Assembly: GCA_963402885.1 (NCBI GenBank)
Contig: OY727095.1
Coordinates: 31,005,001-31,069,000, forward strand
Reading direction: 5' to 3'
Length of the DNA stretch: 64,000 bases
DNA from: Antedon bifida
Lineage: Eukaryota; Echinodermata; Crinoidea; Comatulida; Antedonidae
Part shown: positions 2,053 to 59,900 of the stretch, piece by piece
Layout: the number at the start of each line of letters is the position of its first letter
Position numbering within the stretch: the stretch's first letter is position 1
The notes under the pieces: model-generated
What the model was told of the DNA's origin: nothing
The model's database searches: none
Seen by the model: the letters and a program-made list of their open reading frames with translations, nothing else
Translations under genes and position numbers: made by a program

Positions 2053-5000
2053 CTAATATGTTCGTCTTGTTGCATATTCTAATACAATACTGGCAGCTCC
2101 AAGCAAGGCAGGTTCAACAAGTTCCGACGCCCTAATTTGAACATTTCTAGCTGACCGCAGGGCATCTTCATCCACCATCCTACGCACTTCATTGACGTAT
2201 AATGGGGCAAATATTCCACAAAGAATGACAAGAGACGGATTGAGGACGTGTAACATACTGGTGACAGCATAGCCCATTGCCTTGGCAGCTAAAGAACAGA
2301 ACATAATAATTATTAAAATAATAACTAATGGGTGGATAATAGATTCCGCTTAAGCTCTGTCTCCACTATCAAACTTTATGTGACAAAAATTGTGATGAGC
2401 CCATATATGGACACGATGATGTCACATCACTACCATATTTGGGCACATCACACTTTTTTGTCAAACTTGTTTGATAGTGTAGACAGAGCTTAATGTTGAA
2501 ACAGCTATAATACAGTAGCTGACTTAGCATTGTATTTTATTACTGCAGTTTCCAAAGCTTGCTGATGGATCCCAGAGAAGTGGACAGGTGTTGGAAGTGA
2601 GTGGTACAAAGGCTGTAGTTCACACACTTTTGTCAAACTAGTTTCATAGTGTAGACAGGGCTTTATGGTAACCAAAGCACAGTGGACCAGACATTGCACA
2701 TACAACAACTTTCATCCATTTCACCCAGTACCAAAATGCTAGTTTACAAGGGTGAATATCGAGCTGTCAGGTGCAATACATTGGCATCTATATAAATATG
2801 TTGTGTTACTCTCTTTGCTATGGTGTATAATACCCCTTTCACACCAAAAGCAAAAGTCCGGAGACACTCCGGAGTTGACGCCCGGTGTTTTGGTGTGAAA
2901 GGTAAAATCAAGCAACTCCGGAGATTAAAACTGCGGGGTTGAACATCTGAACATTCTCCGGAGAGCGAACTGCGGGGACACCCCTGTGTTTTGGTGTGAA
3001 AGGTACCAACATCAAACTCTGGAGTTTTTAGGTCAAAAGGTCATCCTCACACGATCACTCATTGCTTTCGTATTATTTCAAAATACTTTAAATACTTGTA
3101 AAAAATATATAGCGGGTCTAGAAAATAATAAGTAGTATCAATAAAACATTATATGACTTTTGAAAATAATTATTAGATTAAAAATATTATCAATTAAAAT
3201 GATTCTAATGATCGTCGTTGTAAACAAAATAGAGGGCGACATTTACAATTTTATTTTATAAACCCCGGTGTTGCTAAGTTGGTGTGAAAGGGGTATCTCC
3301 GGAGTTTCTCGATGTTTTGAATGGTCATAAACCCCGGAGTGATCTCCGGAGTTTTGGTGTGAAAGGGGTATAAGAAGAACAGCTAATACTTTACCTAGAT
3401 CTATGACAGCCTGTGCTTTTTGATTACCATGTTCTGCAGCCTCCATAAGATGTTTCGCACTGATTTGTTGGTCGCCTTCATTCTTGTAACCATTAATAAA
3501 TAGCTCACCAGCTGCAAAAGATAAGATTACTTTAGCATAAAAAAAATGGACACAAAAAAGGAAGGGAGAATATTTTCATTAATTGACAGTCTGATTAATT
3601 AATCTGACTGTTCTATTTCAACTTCAAAAAATTTGTATACTATATGCTAGTGAAATTTTGAAGTATAATTATAACTACTCACCTTCATTAAGTTTGACAG
3701 CCTCCCTCTGGAGGGCAGCACCAGACGAATACGCCTCTGCACAACCAGTACTACCACACAGACATTTAGGACCATCCAGAGACACCTTGATATGTCCAAG
3801 TTCAGCCGCACAGAAATTGTTTCCGTGTATGAGTTTGTTATCAAGTATAATACCGCCACCAATTCCTGCAAAAGGTGACAAATATAAATTAAAAAGTTCT
3901 TCCTCACCACCTCTTATTTATGCATAGATATTTATGCAAAATTAATATTAGCGCCAAATCTTTTTGTCTGTAAAATCTAGGGTCATTTCCTGCTAAGAAC
4001 CACTTATATACCAAAGTGCTCAATTCAAATGATTTTAAGGAATACCAGCATACCTGTTCCAGTGGCAATTGTAATAAAATCTTCGATGTTTACTCCACAT
4101 CCAAACTTTCTCTCTCCCAGAGCGGCGCAGTTTCCATCATTGTCAACCCAAACTGGAAGATGCATCTTAGCTGAAATTGGTGACCTCAGGTCAATCTCAT
4201 TCCAACCTGCAAATGGATTTGATATTATCAGAAATTTAAAAACCACATGCAAGGAATTGCCAGCCACGTTAAAATATGAGAATACAATTAAATTTATTGC
4301 ACATAACAAAATATGATTAACATGAACGATTTGCTGATTCCAAATTTCCCTCCTCTCTTTTACATTAAAAAAACATTATCTCAACCTTTTTCTAGGCCTG
4401 TTTAAGCAATTAACCCAATTCAGGGAACTGGTATTGGTATTATATTACTTATTCAAATCTAAGGGCCTGTTTCTGCTGAACAGAAATAATCGATTATTAA
4501 CCGTTTATTTTTTTAATCGATTATTTTTGGGCAGCAGAAACGGCGCAAAATAAAATAACCGATTAAAAATAACCTATTAAAAACACTCAATCCATTGCGT
4601 GTTTTAATCGATTATTTCTTGTTTTAACCGATTATTGCAGAGCAGTTTTGAGCTGCAACACAAATAGCGATTATTGACCCCACTTTGACCTCTAGAGTAT
4701 GGCAAACTCATTCACGTCACACAAAGCATGCTGTTTATTTGCGCGATATCGACGATGATCAGCAAAACAAAGATCGCGATGTAGACCGAATAACAATCAA
4801 ATGTTAAACATTTGATTTTTATTATTTTGTGGGGGAGAATTATACCGAGAGACTCCAGGATTCTGTGTTACATCCCACCAGTCCAGGCTAACGATGTTTT
4901 ACATGTCCTTTTTTAGGCCTGTTGTCTGTTGACTTGTTTCGGTAGAAATATATAGCCACGCCTATAGGCCTAGCAGGCCGAAGGTAGAACCAACGAACGG

Positions 5001-11000: not shown

Positions 11001-14000
11001 AATACAATTGAATAATGAGGAGTCAAAATAAACACTAACAACAATAAGATGGTATACTGTACAACTAAGAACACTGATAAGAAGCACTAATGACAATAAT
11101 GGATTTTAATGACAATGTCATTTCTTTCGAATGCTGTACTTAATATAAACAATATAACAAGGACTAACTCGCATCATTAGCAAATAGTCTTTTACTGCAA
11201 TGCTTTTTAAACATGTACAATGTTTGTTGACTCCGCCCCTTTTGTAAAGAAACTGAAATGTGGTTGTATTGGTTTAAAATGCATTGGTTTAGTTGTAGAA
11301 ATTATCTCTGGTTTAGATATTGAGTTTAAAGTTAAATCCATCAAACCTCAATGTACGGATTAGTGGTTTAGCGTTAAATCTGTCTAATTTTTATCTATAT
11401 TTTGAATACTGTAGACAGGTGGTGAAGTTTTTTTTTATTACACACAATCATACTATTTATATATTTTTTTTTTTACATCTGTTGATTTAAAATGTTTGTA
11501 TTACGGTGTACATAATATATAACATAATTTAAAGATTTGTGCGAAAATATTATATTTTTTAACAATGCGTGGGACAATTTTAGAAAAAACAATATTTGAG
11601 ACAAACAAAACCAATGGTGTATTACATACGAATACGTCATCATTTGAGATAGGATCACCCACATTACTGATGACAGTATGCTTGGATGATGTTTTAGGGA
11701 CAATAAAGTATATCAAAGGTCAGTGTGGGTGTTGATTGAAGGATAATAAAGAGGCTTTGTGTTAGGGTGATGGATGATTGAAGTGGGTGTTACACTCTAT
11801 GGTCTGGTGATCCCATAAGGACTACATGACGTGGCAAGGACTAAGAAATAACAGAGCATTACATCTGGGAGTTTTAAAATTTGGTATAATGCTGTTAAAG
11901 TGTTAGTCATGTTTTTTTATAAGAACATGCTGGTTAGATGGTACTGTGTAGTACACTCTATCGCTTACTGTAATAGTTATTGTACACTACAACAATTCAA
12001 TAACAGGGTAGGGCAAAACGTCTGACCAATTACTCAACTCCCTGACGCAAAGCTACTCCACAGTAGTTTAATACAATTACAATTCAATAACAATTTTCTA
12101 GAAATAAATTATTTTTAAAAGTATGCCAATTAACTGTTGTAAATACCATATTGGTTGACGGCTTGGTGAGATTATTGTCAAATTAGTTATACACATTTTA
12201 CATGTTTGTTAACATCTTCATCATGAACGACAGGGGTTGATGGCCTAGTACATCGGGATAACCCCCTATTATTTTCTGGGTTGTAACACTGGACCTCCTT
12301 TTCCAAGACTTGTTCTATCACCAGAACAATGGTTGAAGGGAGTTCAGTGCCGATTGTATGGTGGCGCCCCTGTTTTAACCATTCAACTTAAATTTGAGGT
12401 GAGCATGTTAGTACTGTAGTTAGTTGAAAACAAAAAATATATTATACATTCTTACCAGCATCAATATTTGGAAATAGTATAAGTGTCATGGCACCTAATT
12501 GGTCTAATGCTTCAAGCATAAAGCCAAACATCTTGAGAGATTCTTGGATGTTCGTCGTTACTGGATGTTGCAATGCTATCACATATTCCTTTGATTTAGT
12601 TCCCGGAGCAATCCACTTGGCTATTATATCATCTGGAGTGTTCAAATCAGCGCTTAAAAGTTTATCGTAAGATGGACAGCCAGTTAATAAAATACGTTCA
12701 TTGTCTTCGCACATTGTGAGGAGTCGACTCTGAGCACGCTCCGTGCAGCAGGCATGATAGTGAGCAAGTTTAGAAACGGCATGTCGAATACTGTCGTCGA
12801 TTGTTCCACTCACTTCGCCGCCCTCTATGTGCATGATACGTATATTCATTAGCGCTGCAGCGGTTGATAGGGATAGGGCATCGAATCGGTCACCGTGAAC
12901 GATCAGTACATCCGGCTTGACACGTAGTAGAACGTCGGGAAGTTTGACGAGTGCTAAGCCTACAGATTCTACCATAGCTGCCTCATCTTCTCCTCTCACG
13001 ATTGTATGTAACTTTGCATCTACTGGGAAGCCATCTTGTTCTATAAGCCTATAGGTGGAACTGTTAAAAGAAATAAATACTGATGGTAACGAAGATGAAA
13101 ATGATGATGATAATGATTATGCTAATGGTGTATTTATGTTAGTGGTACAATATTTACACTTTGGTTGGACATGACCATTTATTAAAATTTTAATGGTGTT
13201 TCCATTAGCTGCGCCGAAGTATGAATAGTAAATACAGCACAGAAATATAAAGAGTACATTAAATGTGTCTTGTCATCTAACTAGCATATTATAATGCATG
13301 CTTCAGTGTGTGTCTAAGCCACTTTTATTATTTTAATGCAGTAATTGTAGTAATAACAAACAAGTATACTGCAACTGTTCTTGCAAAATAGCCTATGTTT
13401 ATAGCTCATCATAAAAATCAAAATATGTGAATAGTAATTAATGCGTGCACTGAAGATGAAATGTGCGTAATAGATAATGGATTTTCTGTATAAAGGTAGA
13501 AGAAGAAAGCATCGTAGTAGATTTAGAGTGCTTGTCATTTATGTATCAATTTACAGTAATCAAAGAAAGGTTGTCAACGGTAAATAAACATCCTATCTAT
13601 ACTGTATTGCCACATATACAGTAATGCCAGTAGCACAGGCAAATCTGTATAACAGTGTCACATGTTTCACCTATTATGTAAAGGCTTTGGCCTATGATAC
13701 AGGCATCATATGTTATACCTGTATCACAGGATCTGCCTGTGATATTGCACAAATTATAGATACAGTACTGAGATTCGGCTAACATACTTAAATACACGAA
13801 GAACAGCAAATCAAAGACACAGTATCTATTTATCGTAAACAGTAATAACACACTAAAAAAAGTAATAAAATAAATTATACCCATAATCATCAATGAGATG
13901 GCATCCTAGGACAATGACACTAAGTACAAGCTCAGGGTCTTTCTGTACGGCGCTCATTATTGGAGCAAGCTTGGAGTAGTCAGCACGGTTGCATGTTGCT

Positions 14001-17000
14001 ATACACACCCTTCTCTTGCGATTTGAATTATCTTCAGCCATGTTTACGTGGTTGTTGACAGCAAGGTTGTTGTTGTTTATAAGATTGTTAAAAGTTAGAA
14101 AGGCAGCCTGAAATAAAAGATTTAAACGGCTGTTATTAAAAACTATATTTATCATGACTTTTATGTGCGAGAGTACCATTTCCAATCATATAGGGATATG
14201 ATTTAATTCAATTGAAGGTCTCACCATGAGGAGTTGGGGGTGGGGGCCTGCCCAGTGTTTCATCTTTATGTTTCATCTTTATGCCATGGGCCCCCACAAG
14301 CTACAGTACCTACAGTATTTATTAATTATATGACATTAATTAAATAAATGATTACTTGATACTTATTTTTCCACTATGACCACCACAATATTTTGTTTGT
14401 ACAAACTGACAGTAAATGAATCGGTACTTGATACCATATTAATTATTAGATGAATGACATGACGACAAATATTAATTCTTCATTTACTAACAGTATAGCG
14501 TTTTAATTATTATTTCTTAAATAAAACAATTTTTTATTTACAATTATTATTTCACAAACGAATTTGCAACTGGTTCATTCATTAATGTCATTTATTTTCC
14601 ATAAATAATATAAAAAATAAAACAAGTACACCAGTGATACACAAGGCATTTGAATGGCTATTAATAAAAAATACAATGTAATTGAAAGTAGAAAAGTAAA
14701 GATAAATGTCAGGATCAATGATTGTGTAAACAATCAAGGTTTGCAAGTAACACACAAAACCAGACAGAATGCAAGCAATCAATAAAACATCAAGAGATCA
14801 GTCGCCATAAACCGAGACAAGAGTAGCTTTGAGATTATGTTTAAAACTAGAAATGGTAAAAATCGAATGGTTCAAAAACTGGATGATTCATTTATTTTTT
14901 AAATTATAATCATCATATACTATTAATACTATCAATTTTACACACCAATTTTTCAACTCTATTCACACCATCCAACTCATTATTGTATACTGTATTGTAT
15001 ATTACACATTTAATTAATAGTCAGGGTAACTTGATACTATACTAAATTCACAAGTGAATGACATTATGACAAGGGATATTTATTATCTGTATTGGTACAG
15101 TTTTATCATAATTTTAAATAAATTAAATAGCATGGAATAATTATTTCACATAATATAATGAGAATTGGCAATATCCATGATTAAAAATGGTTCAAAAACT
15201 GGATGAATATTATTTAAAAAATTATAACTATTATACATTATTATTGAACACATATAAAGATACATATTTTTGTTCGAAATTCAATTTTAATGTCACATAA
15301 TATAATAGAAATAATTCAATTTAACAAAAAATTGGATGAAAATCATTTTTACCTGAAAAATATAATGTAATTTAAGCAAAAAATAGTCAGATTGCCAGCC
15401 ACTGGGCTTTTGATTGAGTTTATGTTGTCTTTTATTTATTTTTTCCTACTTTATTCAATCTACAAAATGGCCAATTTAAAGTCTGATTTTTTAAATCTTA
15501 ATTTTACATGTTTTGGGAGGACTATAGATCTTTAATAATCAACGAAATTAAATGTAAAGATGTCTTTCTAACCTACTTCTTTGATTTCTGAATTTATTAG
15601 TGGTTTTGAAAATATAGAAGGTGGAAGATTAAACCAATTTTACAGTAAATTAAGTAACATTCAAACAGGACACAAAACATATTCCGATTGAACAGGTTCA
15701 ATGTTTGTATGTTTATCTTCCTATCAACATGCACAATGTCAGGCCTACATGATGATTCACAAAGTCCAAGTAACCACGCAGTGTGTGCATGCTTCTTGAT
15801 AATACAGTAGTTCAAAGGTCATAATGTACAATGCATGCAGATTGACAGACAATAACATGCTTTTATTTTATTTTGGAATAGAATACTGTATTGTCAAATT
15901 TTCTTAAGAGTTGTTCTAAAAGAATCAGTATAATGGGGAATGGGCCTGCTGTGTTACAATACTACATACTTGCATTTGCATGCAGGTCTTGTCTTTTTAA
16001 AATTGTAGGTGTGCTACAAATTGCAGTCCTCAATACATTCAGGGGTGCTGTAGGTGTGCTACAAATTGCACTCCTCAATACATTCAGGGATGCTGTAGTT
16101 GTGCTGTTTGTATTTTGGTGTGTAGAAGTTTACCAAATTTAAGTGTGTTGTAAATCACACTCCTCAAGGGCAGTTTAGGAGTGCGTTAGGTGAGTTATCG
16201 CACTCGCTCGCCTTAAAAGACAAGGCCTGCATTTGAAATAACTGTAATAAATACTGTACATTCTTTTAGCAAAAGGAGATCCAAAAAAAATATCATGGGG
16301 TTCTTCAATAGTACTAATAACATACTGTCAAATGTTTATTATGTTGACATGAAGGAATGTCAAATGGCAACAGAAATAAACAATACAAATGGTTAAGATT
16401 TAATGCCAGGTTGTGCTTCGAAATCCTGTATAGTTTAATTTTACAACTTTTTCCAAATGGTGCTTTGATCGCAATGTATATTTTTTTGGCAATGTTTAAT
16501 TAATTTTAATACTTAATTTAACTTGTAGCCGCAATAAAAAAAATGTTACACCTCAGTAGCATTCATTTCGAAAAAGAATGCTCCCTCTTTAGTTTGCAAA
16601 AGTAATCTCGAAATAGTTTTTTTTTTATGGAATTTGGTTTTACATATCAATCACACATTTTGTTGCCCTGTAAATAGATTATTCAGACTACGGCAAGATT
16701 TCAACTTTGTGGCATGACACTTCCTGCGACCAACTCGGCAAGATTGGATATGTGCATTTACAGGAACCGAAATTCCTTGACAGCGCTTTTTTAAATTGGC
16801 AATAATTTTTTTAATTCAATTCAAGTTGTGATGTCTATCTTTATTATTTAATTCATAAATAAACATTTTCAATAATAAATATCTGTGGCCATCAAACTTG
16901 TAACACAACAGGCCAACCTATTCAAGAGTCAAACTACATAGGCCTAGAAAGGAAGGGCCAACACGTCAATACGTCCTTGACCTTATCAGCCCACACCCAC

Positions 17001-19316: not shown

Positions 19317-29436
<10,120 letters not shown>

Positions 29437-31183: not shown

Positions 31184-33590
31184 ATGGCAGCCCTATTTTT
31201 CACAGAAGATGTGCAAAAGCTTTTGATGAATTCATTCGTTGTCCTTGTTGGTGATTCTAGTAAGTATATACAGTTGTGACCTTAAGAGTAAGTTACCCTG
31301 TCCAAACTTTCCTTGCATAAAATAAATTATATTAGTGAAAGAGGCACGAGGGATTAATACCAACATGGAGGTAAAGATACCAGTAAGATAGCCCCTGTAG
31401 TAGAAATTATCTCTGTATTTTTGTTTTTCAAATTTAAGTATTAAAGTATCATTTTGTTTGATTGTTATTGTTAAATGATGAATTTTTTTTTTGTGATGAT
31501 TATTATATGTTTAGTACACTTAAAAGATATATTGTCCCCCTAAAAAAATGTTGTTGTTGTTGAATGCCATTTTATTGTCTAACTTATTTCTCCATGTTGT
31601 CACATAATAGTTCACTTTGACCAAAAACTGGATCTATTCAAAGTCCGATTTTATTAATCTTTATTTTTCAGGGTTTTTTTGGGGACAATACATCTTTAAT
31701 TAATTTGTGTTTCTTCTATTTTATAGATCAACGTGGTATTTATAAGGATCTTATTCTTTTATTGCAATCTGATCGTAACCTCACAGCTGCAGAACTCAAA
31801 AGCAAGGTGACGTGTTTATAAACAAGCTGACTTAGTTTGACTATAATGCTCTACAATGTCATAATATAAAGTTATCCAATCATTTCGAAATGTCTATTGT
31901 TTGTACATTACTGTATATTATAAATTACTGTATTCTAAACCTTTATTTATAAATTTACTATAGGGTTCAGAGAGTTGCCTTAATGATGTCCAGATTGAAC
32001 AGAGTCCAAAGTCAAATGGTATCGACTATAGGGAGGTACGAGAATATAAGACGGACTTCCATTGGGTCAGGTAGGTTTTTAAATTTATAATATATAGCAG
32101 AACCCCTATTATGGGGACACCTTCAGGACCAAACAAAGTGTGAATTATGATTGCCCGTACTGTATATATTACAGTTTTACACCTTAATCCATTCAACAAC
32201 AACCCGTTCATTTTGAGAAAGTGTCCCTTTAAAAGGGGTGTCCTAATAGAGTGGTTCTATTAAAATCGGTACCACTACCTACAATTACACTACCTACAGA
32301 TTGTCCTAAACAGAAATAAAAAAGGGGGTGGAAATAAATAAATTTTGATTTAAGATTGGATTTTTGAATGAACACTCTTGTATAGCATTAGATTGTGTCA
32401 CAGTTTTGCAAATGTTACTGAATAATGGATATTGTTTTTGCTTTTACAGGTACTATTTTGTGACACGAGTTAACAGTAAATACATGAAGTCCATCTTTAA
32501 CAATCTATTAAATCTTATGCCTGATATCCTGATAATAAATTCATGTGTCTGGGATATCTCTCGTTACGGGCCTCACTCCATGACTGCGTACAAGAAGAAC
32601 CTAGAGAAAACCTTCTTGGCTCTAAAGAATCAGTTTTGGGAAAGGTGTAGGATTATTTGGAACACTGCCCTGCCTGTAGCTAGTAAAGTAAAAGGTGGGT
32701 TTTTACTACCAGAGTTGAGCTATTTATCAAACTCTTTGAATCGGGATGTAATTGAAGGCAATTACTATGCGTGCCAACTTGCCGAGCTTCACGATTTTGA
32801 TGTCGTTGACCTGCACTATTTGTTCAAAGAGCTGCTGCATTGGCGTGCCAGTGACGGTATTCATTGGAAAGCGATGGCTCATCGACGAATCTCAAACATT
32901 TTGCTGACCCACATCTGTGACTCTTGGCAAATTGAACTGCCTCGTCACAAGATGAAAATGTTTGATGCTGTATCGTCGGATGTAGACCCAATGAAAAAGA
33001 TCATTAACAGCGCCCCGCGACCGATGGTCGACAAACGTTCCAATTTCACCGAGTTAGATAATTTGCCGCAGTATCTCGACTTTGACAATATCGGGGCGAA
33101 TCCAAATCCAGCGAAAAGAATGCGACCAAATCCAATTGAGGAAAACACAGCAAAACGGACAAAAATAAACAGTGAGCGCATCCCACCACTGTTAATGCCT
33201 GTTAATCGCCAACATTTGCCAGGGCCATATTTACCACCTTATCCACGCTGTCTACCACCACAACCATATCTGCCACCTCTACAACAACAAAGAATAATCC
33301 CTCCTCCCCTTCCACCTCAACAAAAAGTATTCCACCCAGGCGTCCTGCATTCCATGCAGCAGTTTTGGCACTTGTATGTTAACGAAAGTTACAACTACAA
33401 TCGCCGTTATGCCAAACCATATGAACCTCGCATGTATCGTGATTATCCGGAACACCCGTCGGCGCGCCATGTGCCATATAATTATCGCGATATCATGACC
33501 AATTCTAGAATGGAGTACATGCATCGCCAGCAGCAGCGTATTGAACATGAACGCATATCAAGCTTTCGATATGTTAGAGTTTTGCCTTAG
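31184..33590 (+). CDS. PCED1: PC-esterase domain protein (FAM113/PCED1 type), complete, 4 coding exons
   Basis: A member of the GDSL/SGNH-hydrolase-like PC-esterase family. The substrate of animal PCED1 proteins is not known to me. Exons: 31184-31259, 31727-31806, 31964-32070, 32450-33590. They join in one frame to 467 aa (human PCED1A 454). The start is chosen at the ATG 13 bases after a strong acceptor. Motifs: VVLVGDS at 19-25 with Ser25 as predicted nucleophile, INSCVWDISRYG at 117-128, GGFLLPEL near 170, and DGIHW at 223-227 giving the Asp-His pair. Residues from about 290 form a Pro/Gln/Tyr-rich tail rich in PP, Arg and Tyr, as in the vertebrate proteins. No signal peptide or membrane segment, so probably intracellular. 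Whether it corresponds to vertebrate PCED1A or PCED1B cannot be told. Confidence 0.95.
31520..31699. mobile_element. TIR element (family B), short copy in PCED1 intron
   Basis: Ends TTAAAAGATATATTGTCCCC and GGGGACAATACATCTTTAA. The interior includes GTCACATAATAGTTCACTTT and GACCAAAAACTGGATC, shared with 23715-24036. It ends 27 bases before exon 31727-31806, so it supplies sequence very near that acceptor. Confidence 0.82.
32094..32261. mobile_element. TIR element (family L) in PCED1 intron
   Basis: The left end GCAGAACCCCTATTATGGGG leads into ACACC; the right end reads GGGGTGTCCTAATAGAGTGG and then TTCTAT. The ends are imperfect inverted copies. Similar sequence occurs at 58913-59052 and, more degraded, around 60145-60475. 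Confidence 0.65.
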
Positions 33591-34602: not shown

Positions 34603-35146
34603 CTTAAAGATGTATTGTCCCTTGAAACACAAAAAAATGAAGGTCAGAATATTCTAAATTTAAATTGGCCATATCAAAGTAATATTAAAGTTATTCACTT
34701 TAAGTCGAAAATTCGAGCCAAAAACAACAATTTTACGTAATTAACAGCTAAATTAATTTGATTACATTTCGTCTGGAAAATCGTCGCGAGCGAAAGTAAA
34801 CAAAGATTTCAAACCATGATTATACATTATGCATGATGCTAATTAGGATTGTTTACAACTCGTCACGGTTGAGAAGGTGTTTTCACACAGATCGCGAGGA
34901 AGTTTTATGATTATGCATACAGAGTAGTCAAATAAGCGCGTTGCATTATGAGATAGAGTTTTCGACTGGAAGTCAAAGTTATTTTTTGAACCAAAAACGT
35001 CTGTATTTCAGTTAAATGATTTTTTTTTCGACTAATTTTTGGTGAAAGTTAATAACTATTATGATACTTCAAAATCACCCACTTTTTTTCGAAATTTTTT
35101 ATTTTTTATTTTTTTGGAATTTGACAAAGGGACAATACATCTTTAA
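34603..35146. mobile_element. TIR element (family B), long copy, 544 bp
   Basis: Near-perfect ends TTAAAGATGTATTGTCCC and GGGACAATACATCTTTAA. The interior is longer than and different from the other copies, with GTCTGGAAAATCGTCGCGAG and GATCGCGAGGAAGTTTTATG, so the family has variable cores between conserved ends. Located between the convergent PCED1 and DCTN1 genes. Confidence 0.88.
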
Positions 35147-35258
35147 AGCACACATTCTGCATATTACACCTAGGTCAACTAAAGGTTGGCGACATGGCTT
35201 TAAAATAGTTTGAAATGCCATACAGTATCTATAAAATAACCAAGGCAATTAACAATAG

Positions 35259-38900: not shown

Positions 38901-41900
38901 TATCTTGCTCTTTTGCAGTTGGTGAACCTGTTTGTGGGTCAAAGGTTACAAATCCTGTCGGGCTAGCAAGACCTATTGGCTTCTTGGGTACGTTCAGTGG
39001 TTCAAGACCGTCCATTATTACCTAATAATAAATAATGAAACTTTTTTATATACATTTTATTTGGCTTTCATTAGTGTAATAAAATAGCTGATGCAGACTA
39101 TAGCTTTATGACATAAATGTATTATAGAACAAACTTACTCGTAACTTTTCTCCTTTCATTGTTCGGTTCTCTGCTCGTACATATCTGAGGGCTTCACGTA
39201 AACTGTCAATCTGTAGTATATATGATGATTATAGAAGCAAATTTAATCATACAAAATTACGCTTTATAGTTACTGTGAATTGAGAAACAACTAATACTAC
39301 CTTAGGCAATATAATTTTTTTAATGATTTGAACCTACCTTCTGTAGAAGTAGAGGCGAGTCCTTAACCGCAGCGCCACCAACAAAGCCAGCGGATCCGCC
39401 AGTAGTTCCTATTTAAAAAAATGTCAACAAATGTATTCATATTGTCGAGACAGGAATTTAAAGAATTGGCGACATTTTTGTCAGATCAAAAACTTCTTGC
39501 TTCAGAACTACACACTTTTGCATACCATATATAATCCTAAAAATGTAATTTCTTTTGACGAATTATGAAATGAAATATTAAAATTAGTTTAATCTAAGTT
39601 AAAACACACTTCAATGCTGTTATACTAATGCTTAAGCTCTGTCTACACTATCAATGTGACACTAAAAATGTGATGTAACCATATATGGACATGATGATGT
39701 CATATCACTACCATATTTGGGCACATCACTCTTTTTTCGTCAACTAGTTTGATAGTGTAGACAGAGCTTTACTCTTGGATTCAATGATGAAACATGTTGA
39801 TTAAATCAGATGATGATAATGATAGCTGTGACAACGAGTGACGAAACCTGTTGATTAAATCAGATGATGATGATGATGATGATAGTGACAATGTGTGACG
39901 AAAACCTGTTTAGTTGATTAAATCAGGATTCTGTAATTATTCAAGGAAACTAAAATCACTCCATGCCAATTAATTGATTCCTTAAAAAGCCTCTGAAACA
40001 GTTAACTAAAAACAACACAACAATCAAATCTACTAATCTTTCAAAATATTGTAAAGCCAATATTTTCTACTTTTGCTGACTACGGAGGCTTTACTTACAT
40101 AGTAGCATTTTATTAGAAGAAAGAAAAAATCCTATGATTGAAATCTGTATCCCTAAGTTGAGAAAGCAAGCAACAAAGCTATGTTTTGTTAATGCCATGC
40201 AAGCTTATCACACTTATACCTTCCATATATAATTTTGCCTCAGCTAGCAATTTTTCCATTGTATCTATAGAAATTGTTCATCAAATAAAATACATAATTA
40301 TGCAATCGTACTGTATTGTATGTTGCCTGTGGTTTAAGCATTAAACCCATTTATGTCACCATAAATATCTACATATATACAACATCTACACCTCTACATC
40401 AACAAGTATATCTGAAAGCTGTCTGCACTATCAAATTTTTTGTGACAACAAAATGTGATGTGTCATATCACTACCATATTTAAGCATATCACTACCATAT
40501 TTGAGAATATCAGTACCATATTTGGGCACATCACACTTTTTTTTGTCAAACTAGTTTGATAGTGTAGACAGAACTTAAGTCGCTTCCTAATTGTCTCACC
40601 TGAACCAATGCCTCCTGACATCATGGCAGCAACAGATGAGGACGATGTTCTGGTTATGCCTTCAAACAATGTTTTCTTTGAGAGTGTTGTAAGCCGTTGC
40701 TTCAACTCTCCTTTCTCTTTCTCCAGAGCGTCAATATCAACCTGCATGTGGTCCAGAGTTTCTTCAAACTCTCTGTAAAAGAGCATAACAGTTTGATGGG
40801 CAATGCTTTTATATAAGTAAGTCAAGGTGGTGATAACCGTTACTTTTATTTCAACAAACATTTCTACTGTAATACAAATAAACTAGTATTTTTATAAATT
40901 AACCATCAGGATTTTGAAATAGGGGGCAGGGGGAGGGGCCAGGGTGAAATGAAAGGCTGAGCTTAATATGATGTCGTATCTTTTGCATTACAATTTGCAA
41001 ATTTTAGGGGGGCACCCTTGGATCCGCCCCTGGCTATCACTTAACGTGTAGTTGGTGGTTATGATACTGATCCCAGAGTGTACAAATCCTATCTAGACTC
41101 AATTATCTAGAGCATCTTGTGTGTGTGTGTTAGTGTTGAATGGGCTGTTACCTTTTGTGAGCTTGACTAAATTTGCAATAATTTGAATATGGTCAAATAG
41201 TTGATAAAATAAAAATGAAATTGAATAAAGAAATAATACATACTTTTCTTTTTTCTTTATAAGGTCATCCTTATCCTTTATTTTAGATTCGATCTTTCTC
41301 ACTCTTTCATCACTTTCTTTATTGGCATTCTCCAGTTTCTTCTCAATTAATCCGAGACGTACAGCCGAGGCACTAACCTCTTCTTGCTAAAAGAATTTTT
41401 TTAATGGAAATGTATACAATACTACAGTTACATTCTTAATTTTACAATTAAACTTTTATTTATCAAGTCAAAATCTTACAATATTGAGATATGTTTTGTA
41501 CCTTAGTAGAATCATTAAATAATACAAAGTGATAAATATTTAAATAAATGATAATACAAGTCTTTTTAAGTTTTGATTAAATAAATTGCATGCCATATAC
41601 AGTGTTCTGAAATGGTTTGTGGAAATTGTTTTCTGTGTCGGTCTAGCCCTTCCTGATCTGCTAACAATAATGTCCGAGCTTAATGGGTGGGATGAGTCTC
41701 ATATAATTGAGTTAATTTTCTTAATCAAGCCTTGATTTCTCTATATTTTCAGTGATAAAACTCACCTTCAGTTTTAACAGTCGTTTCAGATCTTTCATTT
41801 CCGATTCTCTTGTTTCGAGTTTGTGTCCAAGGCCATCAGAGTCGCATATCTCGTTCTTGACCTTGATAGCACGACGGGAAATCGGCGGTTGGATGTTGTC

Positions 41901-44900
41901 ACGCGGGATATTGGAATCGTACAAACCCTCCTGCATCGCTTTACTTACTTGACTCATCACCACCATTGCTTTCATCGCAGAATCTCTAAAAGTTGAAATT
42001 GGAAACGTTCATTTCTGTACTAACTACTATTGAAGAAAACTAAACAAAATTCTTGGTACCCAACAGAACATATAACACAAGAATCTCCTGTTCGTCGAAG
42101 CGCGTAACATTTTTGAAAGGTAATGACTGAATTTTACTATATTTTTCATTACTATAATGTATATTCCTGTACAGAGACCTGAGCCCTCTATAGTAAGTAA
42201 TAGTTTTGCCTTTCTAGTTTGGAGAGGGCGCTGTGAAAATGGCTCTGTGAAATGGCGGCGAACAGTGTGACCTTACGACCCTATACTTCTGATACAGTGT
42301 TTTGAACGCAAATTGACGAACAGGAGATTCTTTATATGTATTTATATGTTATATGTTCTTTGCCTAAACTAGCAAAAACCAGAAAGACGATTTTTGAAAT
42401 ATTGCAATTAGAATAATATGAAGATTGGTATAAGATAGGTCGGAAAACCAATCAAAACCAGAAGAAGAGTGCTGTTTGAAATAGCAGCAGACCCAGAAGT
42501 AAGAGAACAAGCTGTCCAATCTCTTTTGTGCATTTCAATTCTTTTTCTGTTGGTTCACAGATTTTTAATTTCCTCAAACTATCAACTCAATTAAAATTAC
42601 AGGTATATATCTATCTCACCTGAAACTCTGGTAGGGTCCTTTGTCTATTTTACCATATGCTACATCAGAAGATTTTTCAGCTAGTTTCTCAAGTTTCTTA
42701 ACTGGTATTCCCTCCGCATCTAAAACAATAAAACAAATACTTTTAATATTCAAAGAATACATCAGTTTATGGTCATGGGGATATGTTGTTTAATACTTAC
42801 TGCTTGTAAACTACAAATCAAATATCACGTAATTACTTACAAAAGATTAAAATATTTTTCACATTTTTTTTTTAAAATATTACACATTTTCTGCTAAATG
42901 TCACAGAATAATTATTTTCCCTATTACCTTTGATCACAAACTATTTAATTACTGTATTTTCTAAGTTAGTTGTCTTTACTCCATGGTTGCTAGTTATTAT
43001 ATTGTTAAGTGCTTTGGTATACTGTATAATATGATATAAATTTTGTTAATTAACTGAGCTAAATATTTACATAACTAAATAGTAAAGTGCACTGTCATCC
43101 GAGCTTTATTATTTTCCTTTAGCTATAATGTTTAAGCTGATGTGAGTGTGAGAGTCCCTTACACATTGGTATCATTCAAGTGTACAAAACAGTCAGTGAT
43201 TACGATGACAACTTAATTCTATAAATCTTTGCCTGCTGCCCTCTACAGTTTTATACAATTTTAACCATTATGCACAAAGTTATAAATTTCTCATTTCACA
43301 CATAAATATTAAGATATCAAACTGGTATTAATTTCTGTCTACACTATCAACCTAGTTTGACAAAAAAAAGTGTGATGTGTCCAAATATAGTAGTGATATA
43401 CTCAAATATAGTAGTGATATGACATCATCATGTCCATATATGGGCACATCACATTTTTTTGTTACAAAAGGTTTTACAGAGTACTTGTTTACAAGCTCTA
43501 AGCATCTAGTAACGTATGCATACTAATATAAATTTCAATTTGTGAATCTCTACCATAGTCAGGCATAAAAAACAAAATGGAACGTTCGATAGTTGAACAA
43601 TTCAAGGGGTGTTGATAAACATAATAACATAATGCATTTTTTATTTCTAGCAATAATTAAATAAACATTACGAAGGCGATAGTATTCTACCTTTGAGTCA
43701 AAGGCTTTAGAAAGGTCGTAGAAAGCAGGCTAGGTGATTCTACAGTAAATCCCCAAATGATGAACTAGCTAAAGTCCATAAGTCAGAAACATAACAACAT
43801 GGATTGAACCTGCTTATTAAGGACAATCAATAGGCAGTAAAATTGTGTTCAAGTCATTAAAGACGAACTAGATTTCCTCAAGTGCTTTACGGATGAGAAA
43901 TCCAGATCGGAGGTTAAATACACTGGAGGATTTCTCTTATATAAAAGTCAAATACATCTAGGTTAGAAGTTAATGTATAATTCAAGGCACTAATGAACTT
44001 TGTAAATCCGGACAGATTCACAAGTGATCACCAATTTAAGAGGTAAATTGCTTAAAGTAGTTGAGCAATTAACAGCATGTACTAATGGGACTTGTTTGAG
44101 TGCAAAGGAATGTAGTAACATTGTACACAGTATAATTGGAAGTTGGGGCACTCTCCAATTGGGTACGACATCAAATAAAATGCCACCCTTCTGAGGCGTA
44201 TTTGATATAATAATAATAATAATAAATTATAGTAGATTTATATTATTATTAATTATATTAATATATCTATACATTTTGTAATACTCACAACCGTCCATGG
44301 TTAAATCATCAACACACAAAAAAGTGCTCATTCAATTTGCAATATACCATGAGTGAAAACAATAGAGTACATTGATGGTCAATATTCCATTTTGTATAAT
44401 TAAGTAAATAATAAGTCAATTAAAATAATATGTAACAAATATAAAGCATTTGTAAAAATCATTTTAATTGTACAGAATCTACAAATAAGTTTGAATAAAG
44501 AAACATTGTAGTGATGTATGTATGTTTCTGTCTGCCTGACTACAATACAGTACCTGTATATTTACCAATTTGTCATTGTCCTCTGCAGACAAGCTTATTA
44601 AATTTTCATCTAGTCTATGTGTGCTAAGTTTATTTATATTTGATTATTCTAATCGGTGCCTCTACATATAAATTTTTTAATAACAAAACTAAACATTAAC
44701 AAGAATCGAATACATAATATAGTCGTTTCAGCGAAAAGCGGGGTCTTTGAATAAGCACTGTTAAAGTAACTGTTTACAGCGGTATTCTAATTTCAATACA
44801 AAAATTACTGATAAAAAAAAGATTGTATTAAAAACTAAAACATATATTTCCAGATGACATGTAAATGTACTTTAAATGACAACTTTGTAAAGAGTGCCCT

Positions 44901-56900: not shown

Positions 56901-59900
56901 GATTTGAACTCGGGTGGAATTGTCACTCCACCATCGCAAGACAACGCTTCCACCGTTGCGCCACGCAGCTTGCTTGAAGAAATTATTCATCTAAACTATT
57001 TAAACTATGCATACATAGCGCCCTCATTTGTTATTAGTCCTCCCTAAATGTGATGAAACACCGTTTGTGATTGGTCAATACTCACGGTAGTAACCTAGTA
57101 ACTACGCGCTGAACATCCGGTGATTCGGCTAGCTCCTCGAAGAGAAGACGATGAATTGTTTATTCGGCCTACCTGATTATAATATTATTATTAATAGGCT
57201 TATTGATGGAAATTCTTCTGTTAATTTAAACGACCTAGGCCTAAGTGAATATTTTATTGCCAAGGAATCATTAATTAGTAATTATCTGTATATTATTCTT
57301 CGCAAGGTAAGGTGTCTAGGCAGGAGGCTTGTTTACATACAATACAAATACTATCTATAGAATAGGAGGCCTAGCCTAGCTTCACCAGCAGACTTGTTCT
57401 TGGCTATATAATATAACAGATATTGCCTTTTATATCGGTTAAATATAAGATTTGACATCCCCTTGGGAATGATATTATGTTCTCGGGGAATATATATTTC
57501 CCTCAGCTGGCGCTTCGGGAAATATATATTCCCTCGAACATAATATCATTCCCTCGGGGATGTCAAATCTTATATTTAACCTCTAAGCAGTCAATATCTG
57601 TATAATAGTAGATTTAGTATTAATAACAAACCATGCACCATGCATGTATAACTTATATAATATTTGAATCACAAACAACTGAAAATAAATAATAATAATA
57701 ATAATAGGGCATTCTCATTCTCACTTCAAACAATACCACAGACAGATCCAGTCGGCCATTCCCCACACTTAAAAATTAAAATGGGATAAGAAATTAAGTT
57801 TAGTTTCGCTTTAGTTAATTAATTTTTAGGCCTTGTCTTCCCCCTCCTCATATTTCAAAATTTTGGATTCACCACTGACAACATATTCCGCAAACTCATC
57901 ATATACTCATTTCTTCATCTCTCAACAGCCCTGTCATGGCAATATTATAAAATATATATGATCTTGCTTGCATATGAATCTTAAGCACTGCAAATAAAGT
58001 ATATATAACAAAAGTAAAGAATGTTATTGTTAGAAATAGCTTCCACAGATTAATAATGTGATCATCACAGCAAGGCTATGTGGTATTTTTAACAAACCTT
58101 CATCCTCCTCTACTGGTTTTGTGTCCTTTTTCTTCTTCTCTGGAGTTCTTCCTGTACAAATATTGTCAGGGTATTTGCATAAAAAAACATAATATAATCC
58201 TAACACCCGTTAAAGAATTAAAATATTAGCAGTGACGTAACGGCTATGAGCACTCACTGACTAAACCAGAGCAGTGCCCAGTGGAAAAAACAGGTAGTCA
58301 ACTCTTCCCAATACCGGACTCTCTGAAAAACAGAAACTATCCCAATACTAGATTTTTCTTGAAGTCCAAACAGTCCCAAATTCATTTTTACCATTAAAAA
58401 AACATTCCGAAAACCAGACATATTTGGCCAGCCCAAAGGTGTCCGATATTGGAAGAGTTGACTGTATTAAAATATGTCGAAAAAGGCTAAAAACGCCTGA
58501 GGCCTTCAACGTTAAAGGGCCACTTAGGGTTCCTAAACCAGGGGGCTACATGCCTCTACGTTACGCCACTGAATATTAGGTCGAAAATTGTTATTACATT
58601 GTAATATTTTTAACCTGAAATACATAATCTAAATACAAATAGAATTGAAAAGTGTATTTTAAAAAGTATTACAATATCTACAATACCTAAAATCCTAAGA
58701 AATACATTACAGTAAAGAAAGACGGATCGTACCTGTAAGAGAGCCAGCAATGGTCATGGCTTCTTTTCCAAGACTTCTCAACGCATTCACTAGAGTACAA
58801 AGACCATCTGAACTTTCAGATAAGTTATTCTGAACCTGAAGATAAATAAACAAAACCCTGCTTTAATATAAAGATTAGAATAAATGTATAATATGGCTTC
58901 ATAAGTTGAAATACAGTAGAACCCTTTGGGACACTCTATTAAGGGGACACTTTCCAGAATAAGGGGAAATATTCAAAAAACTACTGTTAGGACTGAGGGA
59001 ACACCTCTCAATGATTTTTTGGGTCATGAAGGTGTGCTCTTAAAAAGGGTACAGTCGCTACATTTTTAACATAAACTGTGTTTGTAGCTTTGAAACTTTT
59101 TTGACTAAAGGATTTCTCAAAGCTCATAATTCAGATAATTCAGGTAATTTAATACAATATATGTACTACTTTTGTTACTCGTAAAATGTTCTATCACAAT
59201 GGTAATATTCTGTTATTCTGTCCATCATATTCTTTGGCATGAGAATAATGACAATAACAATGATAGGAGAATGATAATATAGAATGTTCTTTATAATTAC
59301 GCATAACCACCTCACCTCTGGTCCATACATCAGAGCTGCAGGTCCAGGTCCATCTTCACCTGATCCTATCTCTCCTTGCTTAGGTAATCTGCGCCGTATC
59401 TAAAATTAACATAATCATATTATACACAATTTATATTAATTATTGTATTTTTTTAATAGTGAAAAGCAATATATTTTCAACAATCACTGACATCATGACT
59501 TTCATGAGTTATTGAATTTCGAGATTAAAACATTTTTTTTCTAAGTAGTAAAACAGCAAATGCAAACTCACCTGTCTAGAAAATGTTTTTATGTCATCTG
59601 CTGTGGAATCCAGATCTTTCATTAAAATGGCAAGATCAGTCGTCTCTTGCTTGGCCTGAAAAAAAAAAGAAGATAAATTGAATAGAAGTCTGAATAAAAT
59701 TATTAGAACTATCATCAAATTGATGGAGTGAATTAATCAACTTTAAGCTCTGACTACACTATCAAACTAGTTTGACCAAAAAAAGTGTGATGTGCCCATA
59801 TATGGTAGTGATATGCCCAAATATGGTGGTGACATCATTAACAGTGTAACCCAAGCTTTACCTGCATAAGCACTTTAACCTTCTTAGTTTCCAAAGTAAT

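Follow-up and report, generated by a model that had tools for sequence, protein, structure and literature searches.

A fragment of ATP6V1B exon 3 flanked by MITE parts in a GNE intron of Antedon bifida

Results

An ATP6V1B piece lies inverted in the last intron of GNE

The window analysed here, a 64-kb stretch of Antedon bifida DNA, carries GNE and ATP6V1B, both on the minus strand. The segment 2053-2292 (minus strand) matches the C-terminus of the bifunctional UDP-GlcNAc 2-epimerase/ManNAc kinase GNE (E 4.5e-18), and a Pfam scan places an Epimerase_2 exon at 12445-13116. For ATP6V1B, the peptide of the exon at 27261-27359 matches V-ATPase subunit B (E 9e-11), and the frame around this exon resembles the ATP synthase beta-barrel domain with a Pfam score of 20.7 bits, just below the curated cut-off of 20.9. 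Within the last GNE intron, a piece of ATP6V1B that lies ∼25 kb from its parent is found between parts of the repeat family MITE-A, whose two arms were given the names L and R in this analysis. The features are as follows.

2289 to about 3394, minus strand: last GNE intron, host of the unit; splice sites read by eye
2350-2352: left outer target duplication, TTA
2353-2490, plus strand: complete MITE-A of 138 bp, L arm on the left, R arm on the right
2491-2501, plus strand: junction block TAATGTTGAAA, 7/11 alike to parent 27417-27407
2502-2622, plus strand: ATP6V1B copy in the GNE intron, aligned to parent 27406-27262 (minus strand)
2502-2548, plus strand: copy of the intron end upstream of exon 3, AG acceptor included, with 4 substitutions in 47 bases
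2549-2622, plus strand: copy of exon 3, 74 of 99 nt, last base missing
2623-2662 (start approximate), plus strand: MITE-A right arm only, R type
2663-2665: right outer target duplication, TTA, the same as at 2350-2352
27127-27237 (27124-27240 with duplications), plus strand: MITE-A in the next ATP6V1B intron; its arm away from the exon is L-type, the opposite one degenerate
27261-27359, minus strand: ATP6V1B exon 3 (numbered as in the original prediction), 99 nt, 33 whole codons
27262-27406, minus strand: parent segment, the ATP6V1B intron end plus exon 3 minus its last base

Aligning 2502-2622 with 27406-27262 gave 121 aligned bases with six substitutions and one 24-bp gap in the copy. Outside the intron part, two of these substitutions fall in the last 65 exon bases and none in the first exon block of 9. 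With the left border included (2494-2622), the alignment scores 103.4, compared with 27 as the highest score among 491 window stretches drawn at random, and a BLAST search of the same segment against the whole window (cut-off E 1e-3) returned a single non-self match, 27414-27262 on the minus strand (E 2.9e-31). The match to ATP6V1B on which the original prediction was built is therefore real, and the alignment of the GNE unit to the ATP6V1B region holds far above what random stretches of the window give. The copy diverges from its parent by 5%. Its deletion, between 2557 and 2558, is in frame and removes eight codons; this loss of 24 bases, the loss of the last exon base and the inversion all agree with what had been predicted. 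Since the AG and the preceding intron bases are kept in the copy, with 47 bp of intron carried along with 74 of the 99 exon bases, the source of the captured piece is DNA and not spliced mRNA, as was also proposed.

The unit (2350-2665) begins 61 bp from the GNE 3′ splice site (2288/2289). Both genes are read from the minus strand and the copy runs the other way, so that GNE pre-mRNA contains the complement of the ATP6V1B piece; the predicted antisense sequence thus follows from the strands, and nothing points to a function for it. The captured piece is most likely an inert passenger that is removed by splicing together with the GNE intron. That the captured strand would instead act as a functional antisense element against ATP6V1B is, judged from the sequence, very improbable: the complement is there, and the longest perfect run with the parent inside the exon reaches 41 nt, but the piece is intronic, lacks 24 bp and has diverged by 5%. 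The same intron holds segments with ACACCAAAAG / TTTTGGTGTGAAAGG and CTCCGGAG palindromes at 2830-3030 and 3243-3400, which share short matches on both strands and apparently represent another inverted-repeat element.

MITE-A is a dense family with TWA flanks

We listed 20 pieces of MITE-A in the window. Its terminal 22-mer, with ends like AGCTCTGTCTACACTATCAAAC, has 23 matches with at most three mismatches, compared with none in 100 shuffles. Copies are short, have terminal inverted repeats and no coding capacity, and span 102-164 bp among those tabulated, with arm ends and copy borders partly set by eye. Identical 3-bp flanks were found in 6 of 12 tabulated two-ended copies, and every one of them is TAA or TTA. 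Eight tabulated copies have TWA on both sides, of which six have identical flanks, and the complete MITE-A in GNE, taken alone (TTA/TAA), is one of the two with unequal ones. The flank table covers neither of two degenerate copies with both ends, 43331-43492 and 61535 to about 61620; the second of these has flanks TTA/TTG as read by eye.

These duplications bear on the superfamily. The original prediction spoke of a Pack-MULE-like capture, which is the right idea as to capture and the wrong superfamily, as the duplications are 3-bp TWA. Pack-MULE target duplications are long, about 8-11 bp, and the outer flanks of the unit, tccgcTTA and TTAtggta, have only TTA in common. A piggyBac reading was likewise rejected: piggyBac MITEs duplicate TTAA, which stands on both sides of only 1 of 12 tabulated copies, namely 2353-2490. 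A TWA target duplication is given for PIF/Harbinger in PMC4482050, and the 3-bp TWA duplications of MITE-A fit a PIF/Harbinger-derived (Tourist-like) MITE, an assignment drawn from flanks and ends only. Of the 17 window ORFs of at least 100 aa, six were scanned against Pfam, as were two short exons, and none showed a PIF/Harbinger transposase. The 23-base MITE-A end has no exact match in the virus collection or in the bacterial and archaeal contig collections, and a 16-base end or its reverse complement was not found in the open-licence literature searched.

Some further features of the window were seen alongside. An open frame at 40463-40882 continues into the MITE-A at 40415-40575; we take this frame to resemble dynactin p150, and a Pfam scan of it gave no match. 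A dispersed repeat family of the form TTTTTGGTCAAAGT..TTATGTGACA has copies, partly inverted, at 15245-15535, 23706-24036, 31520-31707 and 35004-35156. Finally, a near-palindrome of about 200 bp at 57409-57607 is 83% identical to its own reverse complement.

The unit joins two MITE-A elements in direct orientation

Reading inward from the end, the L arm continues AAACTTTATGTGAC and the R arm continues AAACTAGTTTGAC. By score, one L and one R arm are present in 9 of 13 two-ended copies, the remaining four being 48-149, 1905-2020, 25913-26026 and 27127-27237. Because these four lack one arm of each type, arm typing is useful but not clean over the family. The complete MITE-A in GNE is typed L at 2353 (88.0 versus R 73.5) and R at 2490 (93.5 versus L 82.5), and the lone arm that ends at 2662 is of type R (69.5 versus L 59.0). 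In a tree of 26 arms, with 7 of the 33 scored arms omitted as hard to type, this lone arm clusters weakly with the R arm belonging to the complete GNE copy (support 0.77).

The order of the unit is hence TTA, complete MITE-A from L to R, TAATGTTGAAA, intron end plus exon 3, R arm, TTA, with a length of 310 bp. In other words, it consists of two directly oriented MITE-A elements, of which the second lacks its left end and middle, and host coding DNA lies between compatible ends, an outer L and an outer R around the ATP6V1B piece. This bears out the prediction that the piece is bounded by a full MITE-A (2353-2490) and a MITE-A right arm (about 2623-2662). A single target duplication, TTA, encloses the whole unit; this is weak evidence, as TTA and TAA are the usual flanks and, given TWA on both sides, a TTA/TTA match is about as likely as not. 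BLAST finds one copy of the unit in the window.

At the right inner border, TCA at 2620-2622 fits the exon end and the right arm alike. At the left one, the block TAATGTTGAAA agrees with parent TTATGATGGAG at 7 of 11 positions, a level that 3247 of 127978 window 11-mers (2.5%) match as well. This junction is more diverged (4/11) than the remainder of the copy (6/121; Fisher p 0.004; p 0.035 against the intron part alone), and the inner flank reads TAA in the copy versus TTA in the parent. On sequence grounds, TAATGTTGAAA may be a diverged target duplication followed by intron 2 homology that reaches the MITE-A end, or it may be about nine bases of filler.

Beyond the unit, four comparisons of GNE flanks with the ATP6V1B minus strand gave scores that 246, 67, 500 and 453 of 500 shuffles reached, the 500 of 500 being for the right flanks past TTATGG. 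When the left flanks are compared plus strand against plus strand (2300-2349 versus 27074-27123), only 8 of 500 shuffles reach the score; as the lowest of five flank comparisons, this result was given little weight. It is here that, in the self-comparison of the window, one alignment of the GNE copy with the parent's MITE-A extends 46 bp into the AT-rich left flanks (2304-2349 versus 27077-27123). A likeness on the plus strand does not fit an inverted capture; it leaves a slight chance that the two sites, in GNE and in ATP6V1B, are related over a wider stretch.

The right end of the copy probably did not come from the MITE-A now beside the parent exon

In the parent gene a MITE-A (27124-27240) lies 20 bp from exon 3, and this position is as the original prediction had it. 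A role for this element as source of the right end of the copy found no support. We had considered it on account of a first gapped alignment, which ran from the exon through the MITE-A to TTATGG and so mimicked an inner deletion. It was set aside on account of the outer arms: in the sense of the exon, the far arm is R in the copy (with the scores given above) and L in the parent, where the arm at 27127 scores 94.0 versus R 79.5. The other parent arm, at 27237, is degenerate (L 53.0 versus R 49.5), so that the orientation of this element is read from one arm. Unless gene conversion has intervened, the difference in arm type makes the MITE-A now beside the parent exon an improbable source for the right end. 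The TTATGG common to both sites we take as the TTA duplication plus three bases that agree by chance.

Discussion

How the piece may have reached GNE

We consider it somewhat probable that a pair of non-autonomous, PIF/Harbinger-like MITEs carried exon 3 into GNE as one unit. In an ancestral ATP6V1B allele, a first MITE-A would have inserted at the TTA of TTATGATGG in intron 2. Another, in the same orientation, would have inserted beyond exon 3 and lost its left end there along with the exon-intron border. Transposase acting in trans would then have taken the outer L end of the first element together with the outer R end of the second, such that everything between the outer ends moved as one unit and inserted at a TTA of the last GNE intron. 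What this account starts from is observed: the homology that includes intron, the layout of a complete L to R element, the captured piece and an R arm, the direct orientation and the identical outer TTA. The two parent insertions, both absent today, a deletion that preceded the move and a transposase supplied in trans would have to be added.

Several features count in favour of such a move. The outer ends are an L and an R in direct orientation, and TTA stands at either edge of the unit; the complete copy alone has TTA/TAA. The captured piece fills the gap between the MITE-A parts, and its homology may reach the MITE-A end at a TWA site. In addition, the second MITE-A has lost its inner end, as in a published model: in PMC8903248 and PMC13317346, neighbouring insertions in the same orientation are described as fusing through loss or mutation of their inner ends. 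The GNE layout corresponds to what this model of tandem insertion and remobilisation, as set out for Pack-TYPE transposons in PMC8903248, predicts.

Other features count against it. The aligned site in ATP6V1B intron 2 carries no MITE-A in the window sequence today, and the MITE-A in the next intron has L as its far arm. The inner TAA versus parental TTA and the excess divergence of the junction mean that the homology may stop short of the MITE-A end, and the exceptions to arm typing (4/13) also weigh on this side. The plus-strand likeness of the left flanks is left without explanation by a composite move.

The main rival dispenses with a moved composite. Here a break in a MITE-A in GNE was mended by copying from ATP6V1B with a template switch, which we regard as possible without being the probable course. 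A single GNE MITE-A with TTA on both sides would have been broken; with a MITE-A then present in intron 2 as donor, copying would have run through the intron end and exon 3, and the strand would have rejoined the right break at TCA. One MITE-A in ATP6V1B rather than two suffices for this, the outer TTA/TTA would belong to the older single element, and the right part, an arm only, is well explained by a join within the element to the exon end, at a TCA common to the two. The weak clustering of the right arm with the R arm of the complete copy (0.77) also counts on this side. However, such a repair likewise needs an intron 2 MITE-A that is absent today, or else a switch exactly at the MITE-A end; an overlap of three bases is hardly more than chance would give, and the two additional bases (CA) call for an explanation. 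In a different sequence of events, the GNE intron would first have received a dispersed duplicate of the ATP6V1B piece, with two MITE-A copies inserting to its left and right afterwards. The density of the family, with 20 pieces in 64 kb, speaks for this, but homology to the parent ends at MITE-A parts on both sides, which would need chance landings at both borders. A duplicate also finds no trace in the flanks, where the four comparisons in the sense of the capture do no better than shuffles (246, 67, 500 and 453 of 500) and the marginal fifth (8/500, plus versus plus) has the wrong sense; we therefore judge this order of events improbable.

The occurrence of nearby pairs also counts in favour of the composite move. 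In maize, local PIF pairs have the same orientation in 12 of 13 cases, a figure cited with PMC8903248 and PMC13317346. Among the 20 listed MITE-A pieces, 3 of 19 neighbour gaps are at most 150 bp (129, 108 and 100 bp), the GNE unit included. Random placement of 19 loci gives 1.36 such gaps on average, and at least two in 40% of 5000 trials; close MITE-A pairs therefore need no special cause. A second pair in direct orientation, 61306-61434 and 61535 to about 61620, lies 100 bp apart, and its spacer gives only one loose alignment in a self-comparison of the window (65%, to 95-282). It is possible that this pair represents a present-day stage before capture. A wider proposal, that dense MITE pairs in the Antedon bifida genome form composite transposons which routinely shuffle exons, with the GNE unit as a preserved tandem-insertion intermediate, seems doubtful to us. 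In that case the intermediate, with one partner complete and the other cut to its outer end, would belong to a route inferred in plants.

Comparison with known systems

Movement of two linked elements as one is known from the Ac/Ds macrotransposons of maize, in which two elements in direct orientation move together from their outer ends; these belong to the hAT superfamily and span far longer stretches than the GNE unit. Two miniature elements also bound and move intervening DNA in the TIME-COMP composites, which belong to the Tn3 family and to bacteria (PMC13367494).

Capture by PIF/Harbinger elements is already described in maize (PMC8903248) and for Turmoil-1 of C. elegans (PMC2572040). According to the latter, Turmoil-1 is an animal Harbinger element that took up a stretch resembling two exons with an intron, also from DNA; unlike the MITE pair around a piece in GNE, it is a 5-kb element with its own transposase and carries its pieces inside its inverted repeats. 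The original prediction held such a capture to be unusual for a MITE of roughly 150 bp. This holds in part only: a gene piece of 163 bp was gained by a group of maize Pack-PIF elements about 400 bp long (PMC8903248), and a coral MITE paper cites uptake of host sequence by MITEs and weighs it for its own families (PMC2872659). Among the matches listed from the open-licence literature, judged by their listings and the starts of their abstracts, none plainly describes an exon between two animal MITEs. The route by which short cut-and-paste elements gain host DNA is unsettled (PMC8616336). With parent and copy in one window, mostly typable arms and one complete partner, the GNE locus would let tandem insertion be distinguished from repair, given suitable relatives or haplotypes.

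A close likeness is to the maize Pack-PIF elements, which are short non-autonomous PIF elements with gene pieces (163 and 58 bp in one cluster), and for which neighbouring insertions in the same orientation are proposed as the route of acquisition (PMC8903248). In contrast to these plant families of many copies, the GNE unit is known from a single copy whose source, to judge by intron-bearing GNE and ATP6V1B, is probably an animal, and it still has one complete partner. It would thereby extend to a probable animal a phenomenon that has mostly been described from plants.
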